Positions 1 to 45,269 of a stretch of 64,000 nucleotides of DNA are shown in pieces. Position 1 is the stretch's first letter. Each line of letters opens with the position of its first letter. The stretch spans positions 24,242,209 through 24,306,208 of the forward strand of contig OX424562.1 of assembly GCA_949152475.1 (NCBI GenBank), given 5' to 3'. Below the pieces are notes generated by a model. It was not told the DNA's origin, did no database searches, and saw nothing but the letters and a program-made list of their open reading frames with translations. The DNA comes from Terebella lapidaria. Taxonomy: Eukaryota; Annelida; Polychaeta; Terebellida; Terebellidae. A program made the translations under genes and the position numbers.

Positions 1-183
1 CGTTTGAACCATTCACATTGACAGATATAGTGAGATCTCACTCTGGTTTTATGTTATCTGATATCACCAGGCCTTCCAGGATTGTAAACTTGTAGTTGTT
101 TTCGCAGAATCACACCGTTAAAATTCATTCATGATAGATTGTAGCATCGTACATGTTTAATTTTTTTTCCATCTAATTTTCAG
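1..183 (+). other. Intron-like lead-in to zinc-finger cassette A
   Basis: No coding signal is seen. The last 30 bases form a T-rich pyrimidine tract ending in CAG at 181-183, a good 3' splice site for the exon that follows. The common 5' exons of the presumed gene must lie to the left of this window. Confidence 0.6.
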
Positions 184-444
184 AATTTTCCATACAGTTG
201 TTCAGTCTGCCACAAAGGAGTGTCGAGTCGGGCAAGTCTTCGAAGACATGAAAACGCACATAAAGGCATATTTCCACATAACTGTTCATTTTGTGAAAAA
301 GGATTCCTCTCAACGGATGGATTGCGAGGTCATCTTTATCTACACACTGGACACAAAGCATACTCGTGTAATTCGTGTGGTGAACGCTTCAGATACGAAC
401 AGAGCCTGAGATATCACAGATCAAAGTGTGCAGGAAATTCTTGA
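184..444 (+). CDS. Zinc-finger cassette A: terminal exon with three C2H2/C2HC fingers
   Basis: The exon opens in phase 0 directly after CAG and encodes 86 residues before its own stop, with no natural start codon, so it must be spliced to an upstream exon. Finger 1 uses C6, C9, H22, H26; finger 2 C34, C37, H50, H54; finger 3 C62, C65, H78 and C82, a C2HC finger. The linker between fingers 2 and 3 is TGEKP-like (TGHKAY); that between 1 and 2 is not. Predicted base-contact residues (-1, 2, 3, 6) are S,A,S,R / S,D,G,G / Y,Q,S,Y. Such fingers normally bind DNA in the nucleus. With cassette B it forms the most divergent pair of the array. The partner domain, often BTB in genes of this layout, is not in the window, so gene identity is unknown. 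Confidence 0.85.
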   Translation, partial: NFPYSCSVCHKGVSSRASLRRHENAHKGIFPHNCSFCEKGFLSTDGLRGHLYLHTGHKAYSCNSCGERFRYEQSLRYHRSKCAGNS

Positions 445-657
445 TAGAGATAGATCGCACACTTCAGTTGTATGTTGTTTCTTGTTGTCGATAAAATTCT
501 ACTTTTGCATTTATATTGGTGCCAGTTATGGTTGAATATCACGTTTGTTTGTCACGGGAGTAACTATATCAAAGCCAGGTTATGTGAAAGAAGCTGCACA
601 TAATCCTCATTGATTTATACATTCATTTCCATACTCTCCATATTTCCGAACTCGATG

Positions 658-663
658 AATAAA
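658..663 (+). other. Poly(A) signal for cassette A
   Basis: An AATAAA hexamer lies 214 bases after the cassette A stop and before the next splice acceptor, as expected if the cassette is a last exon. Confidence 0.5.
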
Positions 664-819
664 CTGGATCGGCATGAATGAGATCTGTCGACGTCATTCG
701 GATCATAACTGTATTCTGAGGTCTAATTCAGCAAGAAAGTGTAATCCTGTTATGATTTGATTTACAATTTTTGTTTTGAAATTTAACAAATGAAAAAAAA
801 ATGTACACATTGTTTTCAG

Positions 820-1071
820 ACTGGCCCTCACGAGTGTACCACGTGTCACAAGGTTTTCCAGTGGAGTTCATCGTTGAAGCGCCACCTTAAAACACACAGT
901 GGTATTTATCAATACAGGTGTGAACAGTGCGATAGAGGCTTCTATACGGCCGAGGATTTGCGAGGACATATGTATATTCACACAGGAATACGCCAATACC
1001 GCTGTTCCGTTTGCGGCCGAGACTTTCGTTACAAACGACAAATGGATGAACATAAATGTTCAACATTTTAA
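820..1071 (+). CDS. Zinc-finger cassette B: terminal exon with three fingers
   Basis: A TTGTTTTCAG acceptor ends at 819 and the exon opens in phase 0 for 83 codons plus stop. Fingers 1 and 2 are standard C2H2 (first pair C6/C9). Finger 3 reads C-X2-C-X12-H-X1-C, so its final ligand spacing is short and its zinc binding is less certain than in the other cassettes. Predicted contact residues are W,S,S,R / T,E,D,G / Y,R,Q,E. It keeps the Y at -1 of finger 3 and the G at position 6 of finger 2 that all members share. An in-frame ATG at 790 lies upstream, but within the splice tract, so I take the exon start instead. Confidence 0.83.
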   Translation, partial: TGPHECTTCHKVFQWSSSLKRHLKTHSGIYQYRCEQCDRGFYTAEDLRGHMYIHTGIRQYRCSVCGRDFRYKRQMDEHKCSTF

Positions 1072-1204
1072 CCAGTTTGATGGTTGGTGTTGGATATCAG
1101 TATCGAATGTTGTTTGTAGACCAAATGGTTAGATATACGTTCTATGTTTAAGTTGTAAAATCCATGCTGTTGCACCAACAAATGTTTTTACCAATATTAA
1201 TGTG

Positions 1205-1210
1205 AATAAA
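1205..1210 (+). other. Poly(A) signal for cassette B
   Basis: AATAAA lies 134 bases past the cassette B stop, a normal distance for a last exon. Confidence 0.55.
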
Positions 1211-2015
1211 GTCTAGGAAATTGAGGTGGACGTTCAGTAAAAACATCTGTACTTCAGTCGAATATGCTATTTGAATAACGAGGGTAAGCGTTCACTGAAT
1301 AGTATTCGTGTCCGAACTGTGGATTACTGTTACTTTTGGTCTAACTTCATCAATTTTGGTCTCACAGAGTGATGGCCAATGGCTCTGAGCTCTCATCTGC
1401 GGCATACGACGATTGAATATGTGAAATTATGCGTCTATTCTGTAAGATGTTTGCTGAATGTCAACATTTATCGATATTTCACGATATTTGACGATGCATA
1501 AACGTTTTGATTTTGACAATGGGAAGCATAACTTTGTTGGTATAAAAAAGTTGACCAAACACCTCATATACGGAGCCACACTGGCATCAATATCAGATAT
1601 ACTTTGCAAAGTAAACTGAGCAATCGAGGCATTTCCATATCAGGTCAAGTACGCAGATATGTTCCAACCTGTTACCAGCACGACAATGAGATTTGCGTTC
1701 ATGCCATACACATAAACTTCAATCAACGTCTTGGAGTGACAAACACGTAATGTACATCGGTTTATACAGCAAATAGTGTTGTGTTTTATTTTGTGTTGGC
1801 GATATAGAAGCTGAAAGCGAGCAATCAATGTAGATCCAATCTACTTGCCATGCATGTACATGTAAATAAAAATAAACATAATGATATGTATCGAATGACC
1901 TGATAATACTAGTACCGCATGATTTTGATACAAATGCATGTTACCATCACTTATCGAATCAGATAAAACCAAATGTTATAATTGGCTTTGTGTTTTTTTT
2001 TTATTTGTATTGCAG
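1211..2015 (+). other. Spacer between cassettes B and C
   Basis: No conserved reading frame, repeat or element end is seen. A long T-run and TTGCAG close it at 2015, forming the acceptor of cassette C. Confidence 0.5.
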
Positions 2016-2282
2016 GTATACGACACTGCTCAACGATACGAGTGCCACCTATGTAACAAAACTTTCTCACAATATGGGAATCTACGGCAGCACCTCAACC
2101 TGCACGAAGGACGATTTCGCCATTATTGCACGTATTGTAATAAGGGCTTCATGACACCCTCTGCCCTGAAGGGACATCTTGGTATACATACAGGCAGACG
2201 GGATTTCAAGTGTACGAGATGTGGAAAAACATACTGTTACAAAATTCACCTGAAACAACATATGCTGAAGTGTAAAGATTGA
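2016..2282 (+). CDS. Zinc-finger cassette C: terminal exon with three fingers
   Basis: After TATTGCAG the exon opens in phase 0 and runs 88 codons plus stop. Fingers: C10, C13, H26, H30; C38, C41, H54, H58; C66, C69, H82, C86. Contact residues are Q,G,N,Q / T,S,A,G / Y,I,H,Q. The frame stays open upstream through the splice tract to an ATG at 1938, but that part (poly-F/L from a pyrimidine tract) is intron read-through, not protein. It is nearly identical to cassette D, from which it differs mainly in finger 3 and the first linker, so C and D are a tandem duplicate pair about 1.1 kb apart. Confidence 0.88.
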   Translation, partial: VYDTAQRYECHLCNKTFSQYGNLRQHLNLHEGRFRHYCTYCNKGFMTPSALKGHLGIHTGRRDFKCTRCGKTYCYKIHLKQHMLKCKD

Positions 2283-2390
2283 CGGCGAGTACTGTGTTGA
2301 TTGTGTTCTAATGATATACTGGACATGAAAATACCTGTCAAGTGTGATTCACATAATTCAAGACTGATACAGTTTGTCTCATCTTGGACT

Positions 2391-2396
2391 AATAAA
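2391..2396 (+). other. Poly(A) signal for cassette C
   Basis: AATAAA lies 109 bases after the cassette C stop. Confidence 0.55.
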
Positions 2397-3136
2397 AACT
2401 TTACGTCAATGCAAGCTTTTATATGAATTACAGTAAAGGCCGGCCGGAAGTGCTGCACAATGTAGAAATGAAATAGCTATTGAATAGTTATCGCATGCGC
2501 AGGTTTTGTATTCATGGCAGCAAAAAAATCGTATTAGTATGCAGGCCCTGTTCACATTACACCAAATCTTCAGCAGGTCGCTCATTGAGAATCATTATTA
2601 CTTCTACAGATATGAATTTCCATTGATCTGAACCAATACCACTAGATTTCGATGGTGGCTAACTTGAAATGAAAAATAAATCAGATTTGACCTGACATCG
2701 AGCCCAGGATTGAAGTATCTGCACGGAAGAATGCACTGTATACATGCCATTTCATTTCGCCCGATGTTCAGGAGAATGTGCCACCATATGGGTGAATGTA
2801 AGGGTGATCTCGAGATTGGGTGTGCTGATTTATTCCATAATATTTGTCCAACATGTCTGTTCTGGACGAGTTATCGAATGAATGAGTGTCTGATTAGCGT
2901 TTCGTGTATGATTATATGATAACTGTCAAAAGTATCAAAAATGGATTTTGACTCCAATTGAGTTTAGGCAAATGTGAGGTTGGCACAGGTTAAATTGCCG
3001 AAATTCGGTGGATATGAATGAGAGTTTCTGACATTTTAAGACAATCGTCACATTAGCCCGCTTTGACCAGCACTGTGTGACTTGTACATAAGTAGTGTGT
3101 TTTCACTGGTATCTTGTTGACATTTCTTCATTGCAG
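2397..3136 (+). other. Spacer between cassettes C and D
   Basis: No gene is seen. A stretch near 2870-2900 (ATGAATGAGTGTCTGATTAG) resembles one near 5050 (ATGAATGAATGCCAATTTTT), which suggests that flanks were copied together with the cassettes. TTGCAG at 3131-3136 is the acceptor of D. Confidence 0.4.
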
Positions 3137-3403
3137 GTGTACAAGACGGCTCAACGATACGAGTGCCACCTATGTAACAAAACTTTCTCACAATATGGAA
3201 ACCTACGCCAGCATATCAACCTGCATGGAGGATTATTTCGCCATTATTGTACATACTGCAATAAGGGTTTCATGACACCATCTGCTCTGAAAGGACATCT
3301 TGCTATACATACCGGTAGACGGGATTTCAAGTGTACGCGATGTGGAACAACTTATTCGTACAAAAATCACCTGAAGCGACACATGCTGAGCTGTAAAGAT
3401 TGA
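3137..3403 (+). CDS. Zinc-finger cassette D: terminal exon with three fingers
   Basis: Phase 0 opening after TTGCAG, 88 codons plus stop, exactly the length of cassette C. All twelve zinc ligands are at the same places as in C (C10/C13/H26/H30, C38/C41/H54/H58, C66/C69/H82/C86). Contact residues are Q,G,N,Q / T,S,A,G / Y,N,H,R, so only finger 3 differs from C at predicted base contacts (positions 2 and 6). The near identity at DNA level points to a fairly young tandem duplication or to gene conversion. It is expected to be an alternative last exon giving a slightly different DNA specificity. Confidence 0.88.
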   Translation: MYKTAQRYECHLCNKTFSQYGNLRQHINLHGGLFRHYCTYCNKGFMTPSALKGHLAIHTGRRDFKCTRCGTTYSYKNHLKRHMLSCKD

Positions 3404-3534
3404 CTTTCAAATGACTTACTGAAGAGGATTGCATTATTGTACATGTAATATAATATTGATGGGCAAATGCAATTGTGAGCGAATATGCACAAATGTTTGG
3501 ATATATGCGCACGCACATATGTGCGGGAAGTCCG

Positions 3535-3540
3535 AATAAA
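3535..3540 (+). other. Poly(A) signal for cassette D
   Basis: AATAAA lies 132 bases after the cassette D stop. Confidence 0.5.
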
Positions 3541-3560
3541 GTCCTTGTAGAATTCCAACA

Positions 3561-3640
3561 TGAATATCTAGGACAGCATATCAAGCTGCATTGGACTATT
3601 TCGTCATTATTACACATACTGCAGTTCACAATGATAAAGC
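3561..3640 (+). pseudogene. Relic of a C/D-type zinc-finger cassette
   Basis: The stretch matches the end of finger 1 and start of finger 2 of cassettes C/D at DNA level: it encodes LGQHIKLH (compare LRQHINLH), then, in another frame, a match to the FRHYCTYC region. There is no open frame through both parts and no finger 3. It is a dead cassette fragment just downstream of D, evidence that the array has also lost members. Confidence 0.5.
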
Positions 3641-5696
3641 TTCTCCTGACAGCATCATTTTTTTCGAATCGGACTTGAATAATCAGACTTGTTTTCATGC
3701 CACAGTTTTTTTGTCCACATTTTCCAATGACACTGGATCACAGGTATTGCTGTTGCTATTCATAACTTTCGTATTGATGTCGGTCAAAACCTGTGCTGTA
3801 ACACTGTGACCTTGGAGCAGCTGTTGGAGATACACTAGTGTATAATGACAGATAAGTAGTTTGGAATGTATATGCATGCAAAAATCCTCAAATGTGTGTT
3901 GTGTTGTGTTGTGTTGTCCTTCATGAGAAAATATATATTTTCGAGATGGCCAAGTGGGGGCGAGAGGGGCGAGTATTTTGGACAATTTACATGAGGTGAA
4001 CTATGGCAACATCGTTCTTTCTTGATCAACATTTTCGCGTCGATCTTGTAATCTCCTGTAAAACATGAAGCAGTTAGGAGGAAAAATCACCTGTTGTATA
4101 TGGGTCAAATTGTCAAACCAGCTGAAAAAACTTTGACCAATTGTCAACTTCAGTACGTGTGATAACTGGTAGAAATTTCAAAGCAATCAGAAAACAGGGA
4201 CATACTAAATGTGCAGAATGTATATATTATCGGGGGTTGCCTTCGTTGTTGGTTGTTAATTTAATCAATTATCACGGTTTGCCAGCTCGGTTGTTTTAGA
4301 TGAATCTTTGATGGATGTAGTCGCGATAAATCCAAATTACAGTCCAATAGTCTATTGAAATGATAGTAATCAGTCCGGTAAGTACATGTATTAGTCCAGT
4401 ACAGTTCCTGATGTGAAGATACAATCGGAGGCAATACAGGCATAAATTTAACACATTGTTTCAGGGTCCCTAAAAATGGACGATGTTACATGTCCAGACC
4501 CATATTCCAACTGCCCTTTGTCTCCACTCAAAATCTGTGTCTAGTGACGTGGATGGAAAATTTAACCAACAAGAATCTGGCACAACCTAAGGGTGGTAAT
4601 GACTGGCCAATGATTTGGCTCTGTTCCTAACGAGACTTATGGGAAGGGGTGTACACTTGAAAAAAAAGAAAATAAGGCGTTGGAATGTGTTGCCATTGAA
4701 ACAGGGTATCAAGGAAATTTAGTATTTTAAATCATGGTTTGATACTCAATGCAATTAATGAAATACTGACATGAATTAGTTATTTAATATTTAACCCAAG
4801 AAATAAATGAACTGATAATGGCTTAATACATGATAACAAATACGATGACAACTGACAACACAAATGTAAATTGTAGCAATGTGTAATCTGTTATAATATA
4901 TACAAGTAAAAATGTGTTATGTATATCTCTGACGCTAAGTACATCTCTTGGATCGAGTCTTTGAGGCCCTTTAGATGTTCTGTGAGATTATGTTGCTACA
5001 TAATGCATACAGTGCACGAAATTGACTGCCTCTTTACAAATCGGCGTATGAATGAATGCCAATTTTTTGTTCAGATTTCAGGTAGAAACGAACGTATGGG
5101 AAATTTCTCTGTTTTGTCTAAGTTGTTTTGAAATAAAAGCTATGCTGCTTCATAGATAGTGAAATCAAGATCTTGTGAGAATTGGTAGATGGAAGCTGTA
5201 GTAAAGTCAGTCTTGTGTGAATATAATTAGATTTATCAAAAATCCAAATATATGAGTATTTCTAAATTGGGAGCCCCAAAATTGTGTATTGGAACAGTAC
5301 TAATTACTAACATCTATTTTTTTCATATCTTGTACTTGTATCCCAGTACTTGAAAGGAAATGGGGCACTTTTTGTGTGAATTACATCATAACTAAAATCC
5401 ATAGATGGGCAGTATGCCTGAATGCCTAGATCGAAGATTGTGTGCTGTAATGTACAACAATTTACACTGGGCACAGATTTTCTTCTTTCGTTCAACCTAG
5501 AATGCTATGTGCTAATGTGTTGACATTTTATGGCAATTCATAACTATTTACCAATAAAAGTGCAGCCTCCTTTTAATTGTGAGGAATGGCAGCTGTTGAA
5601 AAAGCAACAATAATTACGATAAAAATCACACCAAAAATTACCAGATGACCAGAAATATGTACCCACTATTTTTAGTAATTTTTTTCTCTCTTGCAG
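3641..5696 (+). other. Spacer between cassettes D and E
   Basis: No gene is recognised in 2 kb. A short GTGTT tandem repeat lies at about 3894-3917. Short ORFs here have no recognisable family. The last 50 bases are T-rich and end in CTTGCAG, the acceptor of cassette E. Confidence 0.5.
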
Positions 5697-5969
5697 AGGA
5701 CCTACAGTGCCCCATTCGTGTGCAGTTTGTGCTCCAAGTCGTTTTCCCACCAGGGCAATCTGCGACAGCATATGAACCTACACAACGGGATATTCAAACA
5801 TTACTGTGAATATTGTAACAAAGGATTCAAGTCGCCATCAGCTCTGAAGGGTCATACAGCTTCCCATACTGGAAACAGGGAGTTTCATTGTGAAGCCTGT
5901 GGTAAATCCTATGGCTACAAAAATCACCTTAAGGACCATTTGAAAAAATGTACAATGCAAAAATATTGA
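5697..5969 (+). CDS. Zinc-finger cassette E: terminal exon with three fingers
   Basis: Opens in phase 0 after CTCTTGCAG and encodes 90 residues plus stop. The finger 1 Cys pair is C9/C12, and finger 3 ends as C2HC (HLKKC). Contact residues are H,G,N,Q / S,S,A,G / Y,N,H,D. Together with F, G and H it forms a third subfamily marked by the APFVCSLC start and the NGIFKHYC linker. It is almost identical to cassette F 4.5 kb downstream. I see no AATAAA within 300 bases of the stop, so its 3' end is unclear. Confidence 0.87.
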   Translation, partial: RTYSAPFVCSLCSKSFSHQGNLRQHMNLHNGIFKHYCEYCNKGFKSPSALKGHTASHTGNREFHCEACGKSYGYKNHLKDHLKKCTMQKY

Positions 5970-6351
5970 TATTCTGTTGTGATCATGTATTTCTTATCAT
6001 GCGAGATTGTTTGGCGTTGGAAAAGGTCATTGATTTTGAAACGATTTTATGCATGTATGTATAGAGACAATTGACACATGATGAACAAATCTTACACCTC
6101 GAGAAACGGTATCTAGATGAATATTAGATTGACGACAGGTGTGTGATATGATTTTTTTCCAGCAGCCACTGTGGCTGAAGCATCTCGGTTTGATTTTGCC
6201 ACATACAGAAATGTTCGGCAACAGTATATATTTATCATGATATGGTATAGTAGCCGAGCGAACCATGAATTTGAGAATAAGCACCACTTATCAACAACAA
6301 TCTTATCGTCTTTCAACACATTGACAAAGTCATGCACGGTAAATTCAAACA

Positions 6352-6532
6352 CCTTTTATTTGGATGGTAATAAGGTGGGCTGTGCCGCTAGCACCTCCGG
6401 GATAACCTACAAAAGATCGTCTCCCTGATGTGTGTTCAGTGTACACAGCAGAACTGAAAGCTATATTATTAGCACTGTCCCTTATCCGCCGGTCTGGAGA
6501 ACTGGGCAATGTTATCGGCTGATATTCTCTAT
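6352..6532 (+). mobile_element. LINE fragment, RNase H region (RNase H-bearing I-like group)
   Basis: The stretch matches the RNase H part of the fuller LINE at 45.1-46.7 kb: it keeps the DGNKVGCAA block, then the YTAELKA block with the catalytic E and the following helix. Both ends are lost and the frame is broken. No TTC tail is present, so this is a remnant, not a recent insertion. Confidence 0.7.
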
Positions 6533-6594
6533 TCATGATGACCACTGACTTCGTGTAATTATCATTTCGACTAGACACTTCTACGGTGTACAGT

Positions 6595-6737
6595 CTTCCC
6601 GAATTAACAGGAAACACAAAAAAACAACATTTTCATCAAAGGCTTGACAAGAAAGTTTCTTGACAATTTTCTTCAGATGAGAATTCTACTGTTGTAGCCA
6701 AAGTCTGTTGGTCTATGGACAGAAGGAGTTGAGGCAG
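6595..6737 (+). repeat. Direct repeat, left copy (about 140 bp)
   Basis: The sequence starting CCCGAATTAACAGG recurs at 8396-8537 in the same orientation with roughly 80 percent identity by eye. The 1.66 kb between the two copies holds three dispersed copies of a 25-base motif (near 6930, 7296 and 7729) and no gene. The pair could be the ends of an unrecognised element or a segmental copy. Confidence 0.55.
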
Positions 6738-7448
6738 ATTTCACGGGAATAGTGACAAAGTTGTCCCAATGTGGGCAAATTTTAACGTTTGTCAGACCAT
6801 GAGTTTGTTGGAGAATGTGGAAGTACAGGTCTTGTAGCACAACTTCTGAAAGTTTTGGAGCTTAATCTTATTTCTGGGATAGCTTTTGAGTATCGCAAAC
6901 ATGTGATGCCTAAATACCATCTGGACAATTTCAGGAAAGGACATATTGTTTAACATTGTTCATATAACCATATAACATTTTTTTTTGCAAACAAAAGACA
7001 TTTTGGCTTGTTTTTCACACTGTATAGTTAATTTAGTCAACATAAAAATATAAAACAAAAAAACCGGTATTTGTTGTAACTTGGCAAACTTACATAAACT
7101 CTATTCATAGTACAATCTTCTAACTACCAAATTTCTTGAAAAACAAGCTAATTTATTCTTTGTGTGTCTTCTAAATATAACAGTCATGTTGCCTGTCAGG
7201 AAGTACATGATTTCTAAGCCAACTAGACACCAACTCCTGCCTTTCTAGCATCATATGACATGAAACTAACAATAGTTTGGATATGCTCAAGTATGTTCAG
7301 GAAAGGACATACTGTTTAACAATTGTTATTAATAATAAAAGGTATTTTTTTTTTTACAAGTTTTCAACTGAACTTTCCAGTCAGCTCAATATCTTCTTGA
7401 AGCAGTCAACACCTATACAATGGCAAAACATTCTGAGAAAAACAAACA

Positions 7449-7570
7449 CTTAGACTAATTTCATGAACTAATTCACAATACATGCGAATTATCAACTACA
7501 AATTTCAATGCTTAGACTAATTTCATGAACTAATATCACAATACATGCGGATTATCAACTACAAATATCA
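7449..7570 (+). repeat. 62-bp unit in tandem, two copies
   Basis: Two adjacent copies start with CTTAGACTAATTTCATGAAC and both end near TTATCAACTACAAAT; they differ at a few bases. It is a simple local duplication inside the gene-free stretch between the 140-bp direct repeats. Confidence 0.75.
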
Positions 7571-8395
7571 TCGATTACCACAACACTAGTCTTCTGGTTT
7601 TGGCACAGCCATTGTACATTGATCTCTGAGCTATCTCTGGGACAATAAACATACTTTACAAGGAACATATTCATCAAAACTCACCCAGTTGCATCGAAGT
7701 AGCGAATAGTTCCAAGAAACCCAAGACGTTCAGGTAAGGACAAACTGTTTAACTGATAACCCATTCGAACTCGATTATCTTCCACTACAAAGAAAACAGA
7801 TTCACTATAATTTATCTAACTGCTCTGCTCTAAACTACAGGTAGATGCCCTTCTGTACAAAAGTTCAGGCAGGTCTATCTTGCAGAGGATGTCCCCTGGT
7901 GTTTGTATGGACTCATCAACAGTGGCTGGCCACGCATACACGCCTTTCTGAAGTAGACCTGAGAAATCACACTGTGAACTCAGTGTCAGCATTTAGATGC
8001 ACAGTTATCTGAAACTGATTTATTCGAATGACATCAAAGCAGTAGCCTACATTAAAGAACACAATGGATTGTGTATATGTGTAAATAAATGTTCAGCAAA
8101 ACTATAATTATGTACTACCTTGGCAAGGTACACCACTTTCTGGCCTCGTTGTGCTGATAGCACCACAACAACAAAGTCTCCAATGTCATAACTGAAACAT
8201 AAACTGATAAAACAGCAGTACCTGCTGGAATCTGATATCCAGTATCATCCGTCAACTGTTCCCGGTTCATCGATGTGTTGATGTGACCATCAGCACGATC
8301 AGCATTAGATGAACCGTTACTGAACTTGCAGTAGAAGCCATGGTTAATTGACATGTATATACATGCTGTTGAGCGAGCTGTGTATTATCATCATG

Positions 8396-8537
8396 CTTCC
8401 CGAATTAACAGGTTCCACAAAAACAATATTCTCATCAAGGACTTGACTAGGAAGTTTCTCGTCAACTTTGTTCAGATGAGGATTCTACGGTTGTAGCCAA
8501 GGTCTTGAGTTGATCTATGGACGGAATGACTTGAGGA
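8396..8537 (+). repeat. Direct repeat, right copy (about 140 bp)
   Basis: Partner of the copy at 6595-6737, same orientation. Confidence 0.55.
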
Positions 8538-10218
8538 CCTTTTATTTTTGATCCATAAGTAAGTCTTTGATGCAGACATTAACACGAAGTAAACATCATA
8601 ATGATATTGCTTGATGAATCTGACGTGTTCAGGCATGACGGTGTGAAGTGATATGGGTAATTAATTGAGGTATTTTCTTCTTTTTTGACAAAAGGTGACT
8701 CATTACAGCAAACTGCTGGTCGCCTTCCATACATCATCTCTGCCATATGGGTGACTGAGGTATTAATTTTTGATATTCTTTGGCTTATTTTTTTTTTCTC
8801 ATGAGGTGGGCCGTCACAAACTGCTTGTCGAATCCATACATCACCTTTGTTTGGTGTGGGTTAGAGACATGTGCCCTTCATGATCTGTACTAGGCTGAGG
8901 CGTGGGTTGGATCTGGGACGGCTTTGATTTACCTGAGAGTTCATGGAGTAAAACGAGATGATATACAGATTTGAATATATCAAATGCTGTTTGAACATGG
9001 ACGGACTTCGGTCTTATGTTAAGTCCAGAAGTGAATTGTTCTTGTTTTTGCGACACAATTTGAAAATTATTAGACAAGGAAATATATTTCTGATTGTCTG
9101 CTCAAGCTGAGTCCTTATCAAATTCAAGTTGAGTTGCGTTCCCTATTTGCTTCCCTTTCTGGTTATAGTTGATATTTGGTCACAAAATTCCATGAAAATT
9201 TTATAACAAACCTCGAAGGTAAAATGTGAAACAGGTGCCAACGATGGACGACAGCGCCAATGAATAATGGGACCATAGATCTTTAATGTATAATTGAATT
9301 TCTTTAATTTGCGTTAATTATTTTTAAAGATGCGTCATATTGTGTCTCTCGACAAGACTGCTCGATGCTATCTGCACACATGTTGTCTTTTTTTTGTCGT
9401 GTACGACCATGGGTTGCCTGGACGTTGCCAACTTTGCCAACTCCCGGTCAAGAAGTTCCAGTTCTTCGCGGTAAAGTGCACACTTCAGTCTGCAGCGCCT
9501 CCATCTTCTTCCTTCTAGACTGTTTTGAAACACTAACCACACTGCTACCAAAATGTTAGGTGCTCAATGTTTGTTAAGTTATCGTCTACTACTGGGATAC
9601 TTCACGTTGCTGTGGATCGCTTTTTACCTTGAATTAAACTGTCAAGTCCTTTTAGGTTCATGGACATATATAAACGATAACAAAGTTAGCAGAAACCACT
9701 GCACCCTGTACATGCAGTCTGAAGCGACCATTGACGTGAAAAAATCCCACATCCAGTCACCAAATAATAAACAATGTGTAAACATGAGATGGTTGATGAC
9801 AGATGCTAGAGCCTTACCTTTTAATAGTACACAAATCTTGACGGGCCTATTTATTGTAGACACTCTTTTTTATTCAGACTGCTATATGATACTATATTAA
9901 TGCAAAAATGTCGAGTTGAATGAAGAGCGAGTCTCTCTGTGTCCTACTTCGTTAAGAAATTTGCATGATACAAACTCTTTGGATGATGTGCCCTCATAGT
10001 TGCATGATACAAACTCTTTGGATGATGTGTCTCCATATAAACTGGGTTTGCGAGCAGTATATGACATTCTGCAAATTTTTATCAACCAGAGATCAGTTAG
10101 AATCCTAGAGATTTTGAGGAAAGGTGTCTTTTTGTAACGCGACAATGATTATGATCAAAGTACCACCGGGTTACCAGAATTTCGCAACCAGTATTTTAAG
10201 TATGTTTTTCTCTTGCAG
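8538..10218 (+). other. Spacer upstream of cassette F
   Basis: No recognised gene. A 42-bp tandem copy containing GCATGATACAAACTCTTTGG lies at about 9961-10032. ORFs of 60 to 115 codons at 9.3-9.9 kb match no family I know. The end is pyrimidine-rich and closes with TCTTGCAG. Confidence 0.5.
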
Positions 10219-10491
10219 GAGACGTCCAGAGCTCCATTCGTGTGCAGTTTGTGCTCCAAATCGTTTTCCCTCCTGGGCAATCTACGACAGCATATGAACC
10301 TACACAACGGAATATTCAAACATTACTGTGAATATTGTAACAAGGGATTCAAGTCGCCATCGGCTTTGAAGGGACATACAGCTTCCCATACTGGAAACAG
10401 GGAGTTTCATTGTGAAGCCTGTGGTAAATCGTACGGCTACAAAAATAACCTAAAGGAACACTTGAAGAAATGTACTAAACAAAAATATTGA
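10219..10491 (+). CDS. Zinc-finger cassette F: terminal exon with three fingers
   Basis: Opens in phase 0 after TCTCTTGCAG; 90 residues plus stop, same length as cassette E. Fingers 1 to 3 keep all zinc ligands, with a C2HC third finger. Contact residues are L,G,N,Q / S,S,A,G / Y,N,N,E. Finger 2 and both linkers are identical to E; the differences cluster at position -1 of finger 1 and positions 3 and 6 of finger 3, i.e. at predicted DNA contacts. An AATAAA occurs only about 330 bases downstream (near 10825). Confidence 0.87.
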   Translation, partial: ETSRAPFVCSLCSKSFSLLGNLRQHMNLHNGIFKHYCEYCNKGFKSPSALKGHTASHTGNREFHCEACGKSYGYKNNLKEHLKKCTKQKY

Positions 10492-12639
10492 TATTTTCTT
10501 GGTTGTGATTTTTATCAGCTAAAAAATATTTTAAAAAATGAAAAAAAAATCACGATTTAGAGAGATTGCATAAAAGCAATGAACAAATGATAAACAAATC
10601 TTCAAGCTGGAGTGATGGAATCTATAGAAATGATAGATTTAAAAATTATCATGACACAAGTACCGCATCTGTGCCTACTGTACTGTGTCCATGACATTCT
10701 GAACATTTCCGTACGTTTATTCTGATAATGACTTCTCATTTCATTTATACTGGATGTCCACTGATGTCTTCGTGTCAATATAAAAATGAACATTAACATT
10801 TTACAGTTGATGCACATGACAAAAAAATAAACAGTTAGATTTGTTCCCATCAAACCTAATTTTGGGTAAACTGTCATTTATCCATACACCCAGTGTCCAA
10901 GAAGTTGGAGTTATGTTGGATGTGACTTTCATATAACAAACTTCTTAATTTTCCCCATGCTGTTCTCATTCACTGAGCATATCACTGAACCTCATTCATT
11001 GCGTTCATGTCTCTAGGCATACATTTTATGACATTGTAATTAATCGTACCTTGTTAGTGAATATTTTGTATGTGTGTAATTAATAAATGATAATGAATAT
11101 ATGTCTGCACATTGGTGTTTTCCAGTTGCACCCTTTTATATACTTCGAGCCTTATTATTTTTTTGAAATGTTCTGAGAATTTTCAGTCCGTTTTTTTGGA
11201 AGATACAATTCTTCAAATTTGTATTAAGTGATTATCATGTGATGAAGGTATCCTTGAGTAGATCAAACTACAGCCCCTAGATATTGTGCTCCAGTCAATT
11301 TTGCACCAGAATGCTTATCGTACAATAAATTATTGTTACATATCTTGTAAAGCTGGTGTTTCAATACTTGTAGCTCTTGTTTGGAGAATCTTCTTTTCAG
11401 AGAGAGACGCGTCAGATTCATTCTGGCCCTGGCACAACAGCCACGATTTCACATGTGTATATTCATTTTAAGGCATTCTCCAATGAATTAGACCTTTCAA
11501 TGCCGCCTGTAATTGCTGGACTTGTTCGTGCAAGAAGTGATTTTCATTCAGCAGCTTCTCATGTTTCCTCCACGTCTCATTTTGTCTACATCTGTAATCG
11601 AAACGTTTGGGTCTAGATCTAGTCATCAATATTTTCACCATTTATCTTCTAGCTTTCTCTTTGGTCTGATCCTCGAACGGGTATTGTAGGCCCAATTGCT
11701 GTTGCTGTGGTTGTATTCCTTCAGCTTTTCCTTGCAGCTTGTCTGGTTTTCCTTTCATTTTTGTCGGGTCCAGGGAAGCACCCAATTGCTCACTCACCTT
11801 TTGATCAGTGAACCCGATTGTTCATCGTGGCGTTTAGTGATGGTATATGTGTATGGTATGAAATGTGGGTATAACGGTAGTGATTACAAATAAGCAGCAT
11901 TGAACGAACGCTAGCCTGAATACAAACAAAGATACAGACCCAAATGCGATACCCTCTCCTATCGGGGTGAGGGTAAATATTGCGAAAATGTCCACACTTC
12001 TCTCCAAATGCTCTTCTGGGAATGACTCTAAAAGCATTTTGGTGCGGGGAGCCTCCAACATGGGGTTTTTTGAATATTGGTTTTGATAACTTATATACGT
12101 TTTGATGCGCATAAGTATAGGATGGTTCGTTTTCTTTGGTTCAATGTGCACAGGAAGGAATCATCCAAACATGACATGGGCAGAGGCTATGGAGGTGTTT
12201 GGATTTTGATTGTGAGGACTCAATACTCACATGTAGCCCGCACATCCATTTGTTTGTGATCTCTGACGGCCTTGAAGACATTTTTCAGTGGTGGTGCTTT
12301 TTTGTGCGGCACCAGGCCTAATCGACTGGAGCACTGTAAAGCATGAAATTGCCTTTTGTTTGTTTTCCTTGCACGTTGTTTGACTGTCTGATGCTCCTGA
12401 ATCTGGCCTTTTATATTTGCTGTGTGTGTTCATTCATACATGGGGTATATGGTATATCTTGGGGGTATTTGGTATCAACAACGGCTAAAGAGTCTGATAT
12501 GAGTTGTTTCTGCTTGGGAGCAGAGAAACCTCCTATGAACAGTTTCGTGAAAATGGAGTTATCCTTTGTGGTTGAATAGTGTTAGGGGTGAGAGATATCA
12601 TGCGACTTATACTTGACCATGTTTTGTCTTGCAACACCC
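10492..12639 (+). other. Spacer between cassettes F and G
   Basis: No gene is recognised. A 55-base piece at 11601-11655 (around GTTTGGGTCTAGATCTAGTC) matches the 3' untranslated part of the LINE family present elsewhere in the window. The rest contains only short, family-less ORFs. Confidence 0.45.
11601..11655 (+). mobile_element. LINE 3' UTR fragment
   Basis: Matches the sequence between the coding end and the TTC tail of the local LINE family (compare 26470-26530 and 47260-47310). No tail or target duplication is seen. Confidence 0.55.
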
Positions 12640-12995
12640 TCAGAGCATTGTAATTGGTCTTGCTTGTTGCTGTTTTTACCAGACAAGACTACAAAAACTA
12701 GTCCATCATAACAATAATTCACGACGTGGCCTGATGAGTGGCAACTCGTACAAATTTACACCAATATTATAATATAGCAGGCTGGAGTCGTTACTGTGTA
12801 ATATGAAACTCATTTAGGATTACCATTCAAATGAATACTTGGTAAATAGTAAATACACATCGTGCTACTGATGCATGATTTAGAAATTGGTATTATAATG
12901 GGGATAAATAATGGTCTGGACGTTTGATTGTTGAACGCATCCCGGGACCAGTCATGTGACACCAATAATTTCAGTGACTTTTTAAAATATTTCAG
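12640..12995 (+). repeat. Duplicated intron block upstream of cassette G
   Basis: About 350 bases before cassette G recur before cassette H (15470-15908) with high identity, for example AACTAGTCCATCATAACAAT and TAAATACACATCGTGCTACT. The block shows that G and H arose by copying of an intron-plus-exon unit about 2.9 kb apart. The copy before H contains a LINE tail that this copy lacks, so duplication came first. Confidence 0.8.
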
Positions 12996-13240
12996 ATGAC
13001 GTCCAGTGCACCATTCGTGTGCAGTTTGTGCTCGGAGACGTTTCCTCTCAAGGGCAATCTGCGAAAACATATCAACCTACACAACGGGATATTCAAACAC
13101 CACTGTACTTATTGGGTTCATGTCGCCATCGGATTTGAAAGCTTCCCACACTGGAAAGGAGGAATTCCATTGTGAAGTCTGTGGTAAATCGTACTGTTAC
13201 AAAAGCCGTGAGATATCTTGCCCTGAAAGGCGGCAAAGGC
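12996..13240 (+). pseudogene. Zinc-finger cassette G, decayed
   Basis: The acceptor TATTTCAG and the phase 0 opening (MTSSAPFVC) remain, and finger 1 is intact with contacts L,G,N,K. In finger 2 a deletion removes the second Cys and shifts the frame. A second deletion removes the KGH region. Finger 3 starts (CEVCGKSYCYKS) but breaks off before its His/Cys pair and runs into unrelated sequence. As an exon it would give a single finger plus an aberrant tail. Compared with cassette H the losses are private to G. Confidence 0.75.
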
Positions 13241-13357
13241 GGCTTAAGTACATGACTACACCTAGACTACGTTGGATCTGTGTACATATGTTGGCACTCA
13301 GGATACGTGACATACATGTTATGGGCCATTCTCTGCCCACTGGGCACATGACTTTTT

Positions 13358-13537
13358 AAAGACGTCTTTTTCCGTCATTTGGTGACGTCTTATTTACGTC
13401 TCATTTTGGCTTTATATGCAAAGCTGAAAGACGTCTTTTATGACAGAAAAATGACGTCTTTTCGAAAACAGTAAAAAGACGTCTTTTATATAACAGTAAA
13501 AAGACGTCTTTTATATAACAGTAAAGAGACGTCTTTT
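13358..13537 (+). repeat. Minisatellite with palindromic AAAAGACGTCTTTT core
   Basis: At least six copies of GACGTCTT occur within 180 bases. Three lie in a regular 26-base array of ATAACAGTAAAAAGACGTCT. The core is a perfect palindrome, so each unit could form a cruciform or bind a dimeric factor. It begins about 120 bases past the broken end of cassette G. Confidence 0.75.
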
Positions 13538-13772
13538 GGACGATGTAATAAGTCGCTGAATAGACGACACTGCTTACCACCATTAAAGAGCATGTGTCAC
13601 TAAAAATTGGGTATTGGTTTTTAGGTGTATGTGAAAGCACTATTTGAACTGAACAAAACGGTCTTTACAGCATATTGATATCATGATTTCTTCCAAAGTT
13701 ATGGCACTTCAAACATTTCCATGATCACAGCATCTGACAGCTAATTAATATGCAAATGAGATGTGTGACGTC

Positions 13773-13847
13773 ATACTTTATATCCTTGTTTGGCACTGAA
13801 ATGGCCTTCTTGAGCCCAAAGTGCCGTTAAGCTTTATTTCTTCTTCA
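13773..13847 (+). mobile_element. LINE 3' tail (about 75 bp)
   Basis: Contains the family signature TTGGCACTGAAATGGCCTTC and GCCCAAAGTGCCGTTAAGC followed by TTTATTTCTTCTTC. It abuts the DIRS-like fossil on its right. Confidence 0.75.
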
Positions 13848-15180
13848 TGTCGTGGGGTTTCCGGGAGTGGATGGTTTATATGTCGAGGTTGCAGGTTGTT
13901 TGCTGTGTGAACGGAAATTAGCTGGATCCTGTTTTGTAGTTGGTGCGGTACCATGGCATGGGCGGTACATGGGGTGATATGAGGAACATCTGGAGCATTT
14001 GTGGCTGTAATTGCATTTGGTGTCTTGGCTGCGGCTTTCTTGTCTGCTGTGGAAGGCCACGCAATACCCGTACGGGATGAGATTACCGCCTTAATTTGAC
14101 CGCCGTTGCGGCCGTTTGAGGTACTGGAGGCTGATTTGGGGTTTTGACGGAAGGTGGCTCACTTGTTGAAGCCATACTGAATATAGAGATCCTGACGTAT
14201 AGTGGACCAGCTATACCTCTCCATTTGCGGTCTTGGCGAAAGTGGTGATCCCTACGCCGCCCAGTCATAGCCCATTTTTGCCATATCAGATATGGTTTTC
14301 TTGTATGTTAGGAGGGATTTTTTGACCAGGAGAATAACCCTGTCAAGGTCGGTTGCTTTGGTGATGTATACAGCGTTGATTACATCGAAGGCTTCGAGCC
14401 ACTGGGCGATGGTGAGGTTGACTTTTGGGCGGGATTGTTTGAAGTAGGCATTGTTATGCCTGTCCGGCTTTAGATACAGTGTACCTGACTCTGGGAAGGT
14501 TTGGTGTTTGATGCAGGCAGACATTTCGACAAACTTGTCTTTAAGGATTTTCCGTTTGGTCTTTGTGGAGATAGAGGTGCCGAGAAGCGAGCCGAAGCTC
14601 ATGCGGCTGGCATGTTCAGTAGTCTCATCAGAGTATGATGTCTCGGAGTCTGACTTACCAGAGTGGCAGTGGCAGGAGGTGCGTGATCGCTTCTTGTGCC
14701 TCCTGTGTTTCCTGTGTCGTGCAGTTGGCTGACTTTGGCGAATCGGGCTATCATCGGAGTCAGAAGATGAAGAAAGAGGTGGTTGACGGGGATTGCTGTC
14801 GTCGCTTAGAAGGACCTAGTGACAAGGAGCTCTCAGCATCAGAGTATGGGGGAGACTCCATGGCTGATGTTGGGGATCGGGAGTTGCATCCGGGGGCGGC
14901 ACGTGTCTTGCTGCTGTTCCTAGCAGCATTGGTCGGCTGGCGTATGCTGCCTATGCCGCTTGGTCCTGGGCGGTTACTTATTAGGCTTGCCTTGCCTGCA
15001 GAGGACATCAGGGATTCGGACTCAGGGTCGAGAGATGGGATCGTTTGACGGTTGGCCTGGGACGGCCAGCTCTGTTGTACTGCTTTCCGGGTTGCCCGTA
15101 TCTTTCGGAGGAGTGCGAGAGGATCCGAGGTTCCTGCCGGGGGTCCTTGGGATGTTGTTGGGAGCGGGTTTTCGGCATGA
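13848..15180 (-). mobile_element. DIRS-like retrotransposon fossil, gag-like region
   Basis: The minus strand carries pieces typical of the gag-like first ORF of DIRS-type tyrosine-recombinase retrotransposons: a Ser/Pro-rich N-terminal part, a central helical region and a C-terminal Cys/His zinc motif (KCNYSHKCSRC). No reverse transcriptase or recombinase part is present. It is broken at several places (roughly three or four) and looks old. It lies between cassettes G and H, so it probably arrived after or during their separation. Confidence 0.6.
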
Positions 15181-15469
15181 TGTCACAGAGCGGAGCTGAT
15201 GTCAGTTCTCTGAAATGAATAATATAAAAGCGGAATAGAATGAACCGAAACAGAATATTAACAATTTCATGGCAACTGCGAGGTAACCATAGCAGGGATA
15301 TAGGAATAGTTGTAGATGCAATGGCTAAGCAACTGCCGATAGGGTGGAATTGTAAACCAAGTTAATATGTAGATAGCTGTGATAGCGGTATGGTGGCAAC
15401 TGCCGAAATATTATGGATACAAGTTAGCAACATGTTTTCTAATTACTCCTCGTGATTGGTCGCAGCTTG

Positions 15470-15908
15470 CTTGTTGATGTTTTTGCCGACTTTCTGGGCA
15501 CCAAACCCGGACAAGACTGCAAAAACTAGTCCATCATAACAATAATTCACAACGTGACCTGACGAGTGGCGACTCGTACAAAATAGTACCCATGTTATAA
15601 TATAGCAGGCTGGAGTCATTACTACGTAATATGATATGAATATTTAATTGTAGAACTTCGGTCTTATCATTCTTGATACTACTTTATATCCTCGTTTGGC
15701 ACTGAAATGGCCTTCTTGAGCCCAAAGTGCCGTTAAACTTTTTTTCTTCTTCATATGAACACTTATCCAATAGTAAATACACATCGTGCTACTGATGCAT
15801 GATTTAGAAATTGGTATTATAATGGGGATAAATAATGGTCTGGATGTTTGATTGTTGAACGCATCACGTGACCTTTGACTTTTTTTAGTGACTTTTTTTA
15901 TATTCCAG
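15470..15908 (+). repeat. Duplicated intron block upstream of cassette H
   Basis: Second copy of the block at 12640-12995. It carries an extra LINE tail at 15641-15752 flanked by ATATGAA on both sides, and the flanking sequence on either side matches the uninterrupted copy before cassette G. Confidence 0.8.
15641..15752 (+). mobile_element. LINE 3' tail inserted with 7-bp target duplication
   Basis: A 112-bp 5'-truncated copy of the local LINE (TTTAATTGTAGAACTTCGG through the TTC tail) is flanked by ATATGAA at 15634-15640 and 15753-15759. The paralogous block before cassette G is the empty site, although about 25 bases differ at the junction. Confidence 0.8.
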
Positions 15909-16174
15909 ATGACGTCCAGTGCACCATTCGTGTGCAGTTTGTGCTCGAAGACGTTTTCACTCAAGGGCAATCTGCGAAAACATATGAACCCCTACACAAC
16001 GGGATATTCAAACATTACTGTACTTTTTGTAACAAGGGGTTCATGTCGCCATCGGATTTGAAAGGACATATAGCTTCCCACACTGGAAAGAAGGAATTCC
16101 ATTGTGAAGCATGTGGTAAATCGTACTGTTACAAAAGTCACCTGAAGGAACACAGGTGTACCAAGCGATATTAA
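15909..16174 (+). pseudogene. Zinc-finger cassette H, one frame change
   Basis: Opens in phase 0 after TATTCCAG with MTSSAPFVC. Finger 1 (contacts L,G,N,K) is in the opening frame; fingers 2 and 3 (S,S,D,G / Y,S,H,E) are intact but in another frame, because two extra C bases follow the ATGAAC codons between finger 1 and finger 2 (near 15990). Without them the exon would match E and F in length within a few residues; finger 3 here ends HRCTKRY. It is either a recent pseudo-exon or a sequencing error. AATAAA lies 25 bases after the stop. Confidence 0.75.
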
Positions 16175-17207: not shown

Positions 17208-20200
17208 CTATTCTTGGTGACACGTGCCGGCGCATGCACACAGTGCAGTACACGGAAGACTGGATTTGCTACATTTACAGAGTCCCCTGCAGGCCTTCTT
17301 GCAGCCACAACGGATTAGCTCTTGACATGATTTGGATGCTTCAGGTAAGTTAGTCCATGTTGGAGACCATCGCCCAGAGGTTGTTTGCCATCCCCACTTG
17401 CCTGGGTCCGGCAGGTTCTGCGTGGCTACCAATGTTTGACCCCAGACGTGGCCAGCCTGATATGCTGCCCTCTTTGTGTGCTCTAGCAGAGCTGACTGAG
17501 TTGGTGGTATATTGTCAATGCTTCTGGTTCCTTGAGCAAACATTACTTGACGAGCTTCGTTGACTCGACTAAGAGGGGACGTGCGACTGTACATCAAGAT
17601 GACATATCTTTCGAGTGATGCAATATCATCTTCCGAAATGTTCTCAGGTTGTGTAGAAAGGTTAACAAATGTTGTGGTGACGTCCATGTGTGCTTGCCAA
17701 GTATGAAAGCCGGTTTTCTTCCCTATCCCACAAAGTGCTGAGGTGGTGTCACAACCCGTGACAGCATGAAAGAAAGGCAAGGCTGCGCACATTCTTGGAC
17801 CCAAGTCACAAGCGATTGTGTGTGCTGGAATATACCTGTAGTTTTTCCCGACTCCGAAGGCAATCCACAGTTCATGGAGGTCGATTTTTGACATGTTGGC
17901 TATAGCTAAGACAACTATGTCTGTGTCAACGGTCCTGATCATTACTTTCAAATGACCCTCCTTTGCAGCATGGGCAGCATGCAGCAGTACGCGAGTGTCT
18001 GCCTCTTCATGGTTGCATGGTGCAATGCCCTGTTTATTGACGTCATGATTAGATGACACCAGAATGTCTTCTTTGTATGTACTGATGACTGATGTACCTT
18101 CCGGTGCTTGCATGGCGATTACTTGACCAGCCAGAAACTCGAAGAGTTCTTCTTTGTTCTCGTCATTCCTCAAGAATGTTTGCCAATTAGCTGGTATCAG
18201 CGTGTTATGTGATACACGTCTTCTCGAGCCTTGTCCTCTTGCTTCTCGCATACTTTTCTTCAGACTGGATGGCAGATACACATCCCAGACAATGTCCACC
18301 CGTTTAACATTCTGTGCTTGTTTAATGACATAAGGCACAAATACCAGTGTTGCATAGTCGAGGAATGTTTTGCATTGCCTTGGTGGCAGTAAGTGTACCA
18401 CTGCAGCACCGTCCATAATTTTCGCATCCACTTGAGGTGTGTCCAGTTGAGGATGCAAGTCTTTTTCAAGGCAAGGGAGAAGCTCTGATTTCTGTCCAAT
18501 TCTCAGGTTTCCCATAGATGACAAAGATGGGGGGCATGCCTGATTTTCGTGTTTGAAGAACTCTTCAAGGTTGCCTTCTCTAGCTTGACAACCTATATAT
18601 AGTCGGGAAAACAGACTGCATTCACTCTTCAAAGCAGACACTTTTGTTTGGGCCTTGGGGCGTTTTGTTGTTGATGTTTCGAATAGTGGAAGATTATTCC
18701 TGTTGATCGTGTCAGTGATTGGAGTCGAGCATTTGCGTAGTCTTTCTTCTACATATGTCTCATACTGAGATACACCTATCTGTTGTACCGTCTTGAGTGT
18801 TTCCACTGATGTCTCAGACATCACATCCTTTGTTTCAAGATTGTATAGGTCGGTCGTTTCTTCACAGAAAGGGTTACCCATTTCCTTCAATGTATCAACA
18901 AGAGCTTTGACATCCTTCTTAAAGGCCTTTTGTGAGTGAGGAGTTTGCTCATGATGTTTGGTCTCTCCCATCTTTGTACTGAAAAGAGTCTTCTCAAATT
19001 CCTTCACAACTCTTGACACCTCTGGACCGGCTATCATCCAACGCCTCAGAGCTGATGGGCTTTCTGTTAGACCCACTGCACCCCCATCACCTTTGATGGC
19101 TGCGTTTTCCTGTTCATGGTTGTGATCCAGTGAAATCTTTGAGAATGCACGGCTTGACTTCTGGACAACAAACCCCCGGCCATTTTGAAATGCTTGGTGG
19201 ACTTCTGGGTGTTTCTCAGGTAAAGCCATCATATCTCGAATATGCACCGGTAACCATCTGGCATAATGGTGCTGATCCATGGCAAACAGCCAGGGTACGA
19301 GTTCACCAAGAACCTGGACATAGAGTGAGAAGTTTCCCTCCATGATAGACCTAACATACTCCATTGTCATCAACTGCAAGTACAGGGTCATGGACCAGTA
19401 CTTGAACTGAGGATGGATCTCTGATTTCTCTCTCACCCATGATGTGAAATCAAGATGATCACTTGCCTCCAAGCTGGCTGCATATTTACTGAATGCGCTT
19501 GTTTGCAGAATGTACAATGCAACTGCTGTGACCTGATGTGTGTATCTACAGCGAGTGACATGGCACGCCTTCAGTGCTGCATCTGCTCTTCCTGGGGTTG
19601 TAATGTTTGCTCGAACCAAAGCATTGGTCCATCCACTGTTGTTGAGCCATTTCCCGAGGAATCTGAGAAGAACCATTTCAATGTGGAGTCCTCCCATCAT
19701 CACAATCATCTTGTCTTCTCCTAGCATTGCTGGCTGGTTCCACTGAATCTGTTTGGCTATGGCAAAGAGTGGTTGATCCATGCAGATGATGGGCGTCTGT
19801 CCTGGATTTAGGAAACATGTTGCATCTTTGACAATTTTCATTGAATGCATAATCATTGCATGCGAATGAGCAACTTCATGAAACAAAGGTAGAAGGCAAG
19901 TCGTAGCTGGGGGATTTGTCAGAGGGTTCTGTTGAGATGCATGGTAAGCTGACCATGAGACACTGTCATCACTTCTAAGCACATCTTGGGCTATGAGTGT
20001 TTTTGTGTGATCAAGCCATTTGTGTTCGGAATCGATCCCATCATCAATCATGTAAGACAGAGGCTTCGGATCGCTATTTGTGATGGGGGCAAATTGATCC
20101 CTCGTTGTGTGTGCCACAGGCTGAATATCAGTATACCTGACTGGAAGCTGTGAAACTCTCTTCTGCTTTGGGAGATTTGAACCAATATGTGTTATGTTGC

Positions 20201-44995: not shown

Positions 44996-45269
44996 CTAAA
45001 ATTTAAGAATCAGAATCATCAAGGAATTGTGTTGAAAATGTGATCATAATACTTTTTGATTGATCATCGTCATTCGTCAACAATCAAGATCATCCTGTAA
45101 GAATGATAATGAATGGTTAATACTAATGTGCTACTCGTCCGGTCAAAGCTCGATTATGGTTCGATAGTTTATGGCTCAGCCAGACCCTCCTACATAAAGG
45201 CTTTGGATACTATCCATAACCAGGGGTTGCGTTTGTGTCGCAACCAGGGGTGCATTCAGAACCTCTCCC

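Follow-up and report, generated by a model that had tools for sequence, protein, structure and literature searches.

Arrays of candidate alternative three-finger terminal exons in a multigene family of the annelid Terebella lapidaria

We analyzed a stretch of 64,000 nucleotides from the annelid Terebella lapidaria (assembly GCA_949152475.1, 761.6 Mb; contig OX424562.1, here C8, positions C8:24242209-24306208), referred to below as the window, which carries a row of short zinc-finger exons, here called cassettes. Our analysis indicates that the window very probably contains the variable 3' half of a gene that belongs to a transcription-factor-like multigene family with alternative terminal exons and whose shared front would be encoded by a common exon located to the left of the window. 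The order of these parts, their strand, their phases, their stop codons and their poly(A) signals are directly visible. An original prediction, made from the window itself, had proposed an architecture of alternative terminal exons as in the insect genes lola and mod(mdg4); this proposal is supported at the sequence level by the order of common exons and cassettes throughout the genome, with the splicing that joins them being predicted from that order.

The cassette array and its common exon

The array includes the following features (positions within the window):

Presumed long intron, 3' end, 1..183, + strand: its donor would be that of the common exon (C8:24209997-24210746), which lies 32 kb to the left of the window
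e1, 184..444, + strand: intact candidate three-finger terminal exon with a phase-0 acceptor, a stop codon and AATAAA 213 nt past the stop
e2, 820..1071, + strand: intact candidate three-finger terminal exon, AATAAA at +133
e3, 2016..2282, + strand: intact, recent duplicate of e4, AATAAA at +108
e4, 3137..3403, + strand: intact, recent duplicate of e3, AATAAA at +131
e5, 5697..5969, + strand: intact, recent duplicate of e6, no AATAAA within 400 nt
e6, 10219..10491, + strand: intact, recent duplicate of e5, AATAAA at +334
e7, 12996..13224, + strand: broken, with an internal deletion and a loss of frame in finger 2; acceptor still present
e8, 15909..16174, + strand: broken by a frameshift that follows finger 1; acceptor still present, AATAAA 25 nt past the former stop

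The one-strand row of eight exons described in the original prediction was found, but only six of its members are intact, e7 and e8 being broken. A phase-0 opening, also proposed there, was recovered for all six intact cassettes by an acceptor picker that scores AG sites blind to frame, and both e7 and e8 open with CAG|ATGACG in the frame of their first finger. The five exons said to have AATAAA 25-215 bases past the stop are e1, e2, e3, e4 and e8. The claim that no exon has a usable start of its own applies to the six intact cassettes, which have no Met between the acceptor and the first Cys, but not to e7 and e8, where an ATG lies at the acceptor. All six intact cassettes exceed the PF00096 cut-off and belong to the C2H2 zinc fingers; their Pfam matches are to zf-C2H2-type families, and FLYWCH is listed for none of the six.

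On the + strand of the 200 kb preceding the window, a profile built from the six cassettes gave a single match, weak and partial (16 bits over 29 positions, 147 kb left of the window), and no other cassette; position 184 thus seems to be where the array begins. Many-finger frames are present on the minus strand of the same 200 kb. Behind the broken e7, a 25-base unit around AAAGACGTCTTTT forms a short tandem array of 4.5 copies (window positions 13427-13537).

The original prediction also expected that the sequence to the left would contain a common exon with a phase-0 end. A fitting candidate was identified in the open-frame listing upstream, at C8:24209997-24210746 (L005:7789-8538), and paralogues of it stand upstream of cassette arrays, on the same strand, throughout the genome. 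This exon encodes 250 amino acids (aa) within a host open frame of 296 aa; its ATG lies two bases past a good acceptor, and it ends in phase 0 at CAG|GTGAGA, the top-scoring donor in the 3' part of the frame. Because the acceptor is so near the ATG, an untranslated exon probably lies further upstream. The BTB domain suggested for the common part was not found by Pfam in this exon or in any of 22 N-terminal domains of the family, and none of the best 150 of 267 candidate BTB places in the genome lies near C8:24.2 Mb; the prediction had allowed for another common domain.

The N-terminal domain shared by the common exons comprises about 60 aa, with the consensus MVLKxDQERVKTLLKDTITLLCKNGLxFKxxFSVEALIGVTLDxDDVFLxSINExVKS. 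No Pfam family matches it above the cut-off. STN1_2, the STN1 C-terminal family (PF09170), is matched by 21 of the 22 domains at E values up to 1 (best E 0.00037), with the first member scoring 18.2 bits against a cut-off of 27.2. Searching the genome with the PF09170 model gave three places. One, on contig C2, lies at the cut-off, and the other two are common exons with E values of 0.62 and 0.72. The STN1_2 matches may hint, weakly, at a winged helix, and searches among solved structures gave no convincing relative of the domain (best E 0.96 for 76 aa and 0.89 for a 22-member profile).

A phase-0 donor lies near the coding end in 19 of the 22 common exons (CAG|GT in 18 and GAG|GT in one), and in 15 it is the best or tied-best GT of any phase. 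Nineteen common exons were cut out for analysis of the linker that follows the N-terminal domain, some with donors that were selected by visual inspection where the homologous frame ends; at least one psi-K-x-[E/D] motif, the kind used for SUMO attachment, is present in all 19, and a basic cluster in 18.

Two long frames of 704 and 1171 codons (C8 ~24215550-24220668, + strand, 26.7-21.5 kb left of the window start) lie inside the presumed intron; we take them, from their motifs, to be retroelement-like with a recombinase-like end. In addition, two divergent relatives of the N-terminal domain were found on the minus strand, at C8:24174347-24175421 and C8:24159815-24160598 (profile E 1.1e-8 and 1.5e-11, respectively). 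Both are adjoined on the same strand by longer many-finger frames, and they perhaps represent an older branch with another finger design.

Association of common exons with cassettes across the genome

Cassettes were searched with three queries, and about the best 150 of 1222-1455 candidates were scored per query, so that all cassette numbers are lower bounds. The 117 listed cassette places on C2 and C8 combine these queries with two C2 cassettes read directly; the broken e8 and a number of partial matches are among them. Before the association count we dropped the rows of C199, a near-copy of C2, as well as finger matches on C1, C4, C5, C9, C11, C13 and C17, which lie in open frames of at least 204 aa with the exception of C5:2043883 (82 aa). 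Common exons were searched with the whole protein (40 matches) and with the 63-aa N-terminal domain (42 matches). The latter search placed 36 on C8 and one on C2, giving 37 listed common exons; its five other matches, on C199, C14, C334, C385 and C9, were dropped.

For 114 of the 117 listed cassettes the nearest common exon lies upstream on the same strand, and no listed cassette shows any other relation within 60 kb. An earlier list had given 97 of 99; C2:12189464, which has no common exon near it, was absent from that list and restored in the 117. The 114 cassettes are spread over 17 common exons with 1 to 22 each, 14 of which have at least two, and the biggest listed sets are those on C2 (22) and at C8:42.29 Mb (17), C8:28.19 Mb (13), C8:23.19 Mb (12) and C8:19.04 Mb (11). 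Counted by array, 16 of 18 arrays on C8 have a same-strand common exon no more than 40 kb upstream. In a circular-shift control the mean was 0.3 and the value of 16 was reached in 1 of 20000 trials, perhaps through a near-zero shift; in a strand-flip control the mean was 9.2 and 16 was reached in 2 of 20000 trials.

The splice anatomy of the cassettes was analyzed in 51 intact cassettes from six loci, taking frames that fit the three-finger pattern only (19 of the 20 C2 frames). Blind acceptor choice gave phase 0 in 44 of them, compared with an even 128/127/126 over the three phases in 381 control open reading frames. Of the 45 cassettes whose retrieved sequence reached far enough for this analysis (the other six were left out), 25 have AATAAA within 250 nt; the corresponding frequency is 28% for random stretches of the same strand and 16% for the opposite strand. 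Two of the 51 have a strong donor after finger 3 and before the stop, and the stop codon carried by each cassette would be a stronger sign of a last exon than this scarcity of donors.

These features suggest the following mechanism. The transcript would start at a 5' untranslated exon upstream of the common exon, and one pre-mRNA would run through the whole array. The common donor would then be joined to the acceptor of a single cassette, with cleavage and polyadenylation after the cassette chosen. Each predicted product would carry the shared N-terminus and, behind it, a DNA-binding end of three fingers drawn from many, and would probably act in the nucleus as a DNA-binding protein.

The same parts could also be joined by trans-splicing of separate pre-mRNAs, with promoters of their own before the cassettes, as in mod(mdg4) and lola. 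The architecture resembles that of both genes, which are reported as trans-spliced (PMC1947980, PMC5666082), and some distances between common exon and cassette reach 20-50 kb. However, every one of the 114 assigned listed cassettes lies downstream of its common exon and on its strand, so that cis-splicing suffices and trans-splicing is not needed. We consider cis-splicing with alternative polyadenylation the likelier route and trans-splicing an unlikely one.

Clearly less probable still is a conventional tandem cluster of zinc-finger genes with two exons each, in the style of KRAB or FiNZ, in which each cassette would have an N-terminal exon of its own that was missed. An N-terminal exon followed by a finger exon is indeed the plan of such clustered families, as described for FiNZ (PMC10547256). 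The numbers found here depart from this one-to-one plan: 37 N-terminal exons stand against 117 listed cassettes, 17 of them accounting for the 114 that have one upstream on their strand, and the C2 locus, read directly, holds 20 cassettes along with a single common exon over 24 kb. The N-terminal-domain profile likewise finds a single copy in this C2 stretch and a single + strand copy in the 264 kb around the window. Moreover, 44 of the 51 intact cassettes have no Met before the first Cys, and seven have one.

It should be noted that C199:321906-449151 is a near-identical copy of the C2 locus. Its cassette matches at 410147 and 338080 are about 70 kb apart, compared with about 2 kb for their C2 counterparts, which could reflect a haplotype difference or a recent duplication.

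Variation among cassettes and evaluation of the terminal-exon reading

With helix positions numbered by the textbook scheme, the nine contact residues form 50 distinct sets in the 51 cassettes. Certain helix positions hardly vary, among them +6 of finger 2 (Gly in 44 of 51) and -1 of finger 3 (Tyr in 46 of 51), and the most variable are -1 and +6 of finger 1 and +2, +3 and +6 of finger 3. When the 51 cassettes are placed in a tree, 44 have their closest neighbour in the same locus (mean 11.7 and maximum 24 with shuffled labels). Within the recent pairs of the window, the ratio of nonsynonymous to synonymous substitution rates (dN/dS) is 0.10 for e3/e4 and 0.12 for e5/e6, and their DNA similarity is limited to the exon plus no more than about 50 adjacent bases. 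The same-locus neighbours, the paired duplicates and these two ratios suggest that cassettes multiply inside loci, where some die (e7 and e8) and the survivors seem to be under protein-level selection.

Between loci, e1 groups with C2 cassettes in the tree and the N-terminal domains of the window gene and the C2 gene are 87% identical; the two loci therefore look like sisters. The family grew in two ways: whole loci were duplicated, mostly on C8, and cassettes were duplicated inside them. That the array is a decaying set of finger pseudo-exons without present function is highly improbable: although e7 and e8 are broken and retroelement-like frames lie inside the presumed intron, six of the eight window cassettes are intact, the recent pairs combine the above dN/dS values with a match confined to the exon and its edges, and splice sites and frames are kept across six loci.

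Several observations weigh against reading the window as the 3' half of a gene with alternative terminal exons. Three of the 22 common exons (L030, L043 and L044) have no clear phase-0 donor, a higher-scoring GT lies elsewhere in 4 of the 19 that have one, and 20 of the 37 listed common exons have no listed cassette; some of these last may be dead or carry other finger exons, as could also be the case for the two divergent relatives (C8:24175203 and C8:24160425). L030 (C8:19040600-19042650), which stands before 11 cassettes, consists of a 98-codon frame followed by a second piece with a stop, and since this common exon is short or broken, the locus could be dead or contain one more intron. As for the cassettes, two of the eight in the window are dead, three of the 117 listed have no common exon within 60 kb, seven of the 51 are not in phase 0 by blind choice, and one non-contact place of finger 1, three after the second Cys, is as variable (entropy 3.52) as the contact places. 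The scarcity of donors after finger 3 is a weak sign of a last exon, because no more than four are present on the opposite strand of these stretches. At some loci, common exon and cassettes are separated by 20-32 kb, which is long for introns. Finally, the cassette lists rest on the best 150 candidates of each query, and the use of one cassette at a time is predicted from genomic sequence.

If the terminal-exon reading holds, a few genes could give rise to over a hundred different DNA-binding proteins. A bolder possibility, which we put forward tentatively and would not rate at even chances, is that the lola principle was invented independently in this genome and on the scale of a chromosome. 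The family would comprise at least 14 paralogous genes that hold two or more cassettes, with all except one located on the same chromosome. Each gene would combine an N-terminal domain of a new type with private, interchangeable three-finger ends; together they would offer more than 100 DNA-binding specificities from which cells would choose one or a few, for example as a neuronal identity code or a transposon defence repertoire. If true, the presence of the terminal-exon plan with an unrelated front domain at many loci would mean that this plan has evolved repeatedly and is able to expand into a large repertoire, and zinc-finger counts that assume one protein per gene would overlook a large share of the DNA-binding diversity in genomes of this kind. 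We found no account of this system, in lophotrochozoans or otherwise, in the open-licence PubMed Central literature that was searched.

Two further frames were identified in the window. Directly behind the array, an uninterrupted open frame of 1552 codons (window 17208-21866, minus strand) has no Pfam match at E 0.001 and looks like a single-exon gene or a mobile-element protein. A 400-codon frame (window 45198-46400, + strand) has an RNase H domain (PF00075, E 1.7e-11) and is retroelement-like. Elsewhere in the assembly, a COX1 frame on C438 with 11 TGA codons read through fits an animal mitochondrial code, and the neighbouring frames, read with code 5, are presumably ND2 and COX2. A second COX1-like stretch with TGA codons (C417:44633-46450) could be a nuclear copy of mitochondrial DNA or derive from a foreign mitochondrion.

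Comparison with known systems

To our knowledge, alternative terminal-exon arrays of such scale are known mainly from insect BTB genes. The insect gene broad (BR-C), whose front is a BTB domain, differs from the family described here in being one gene with few isoforms.

Drosophila lola couples a common N-terminal region to any of 20 or more sets of C-terminal exons, the majority of which have C2H2 or C2HC zinc fingers (PMC1947980). The present family has the same architecture at the sequence level, with one common region and many alternative terminal exons in one phase. It differs in that no BTB match was found in the common exon, in having a single common coding exon as far as seen, and in carrying three fingers per exon; furthermore, lola is one gene, whereas 17 common exons have listed cassettes here, with splicing predicted from their genomic arrangement.

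For mod(mdg4), PMC5666082 describes over 30 isoforms that share their N-terminus and differ in their 3' exons; the common part comprises a BTB domain and a Q-rich region, most variable ends are FLYWCH and the mRNAs are mainly trans-spliced. The family of T. lapidaria shares the common N-terminus and the alternative 3' exons, but has three-finger ends instead of FLYWCH, no BTB match in its common exon and all assigned exons on the sense strand.

The FiNZ/KRAB clusters of vertebrates, as described in PMC10547256, have a short exon for the N-terminal domain, clustered lineage expansion and variable base-contacting residues, and our family resembles them in all three respects. Unlike these clusters, where each N-terminal exon is followed by a whole finger array in one exon, it has up to 22 listed three-finger exons for each N-terminal exon.

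Because the defining BTB domain was not found in its common exons, and because the TTK-type BTB is reported from arthropods only (PMC11426971), we keep this gene family outside that of lola and mod(mdg4), although, judging from its architecture, it would work like them.

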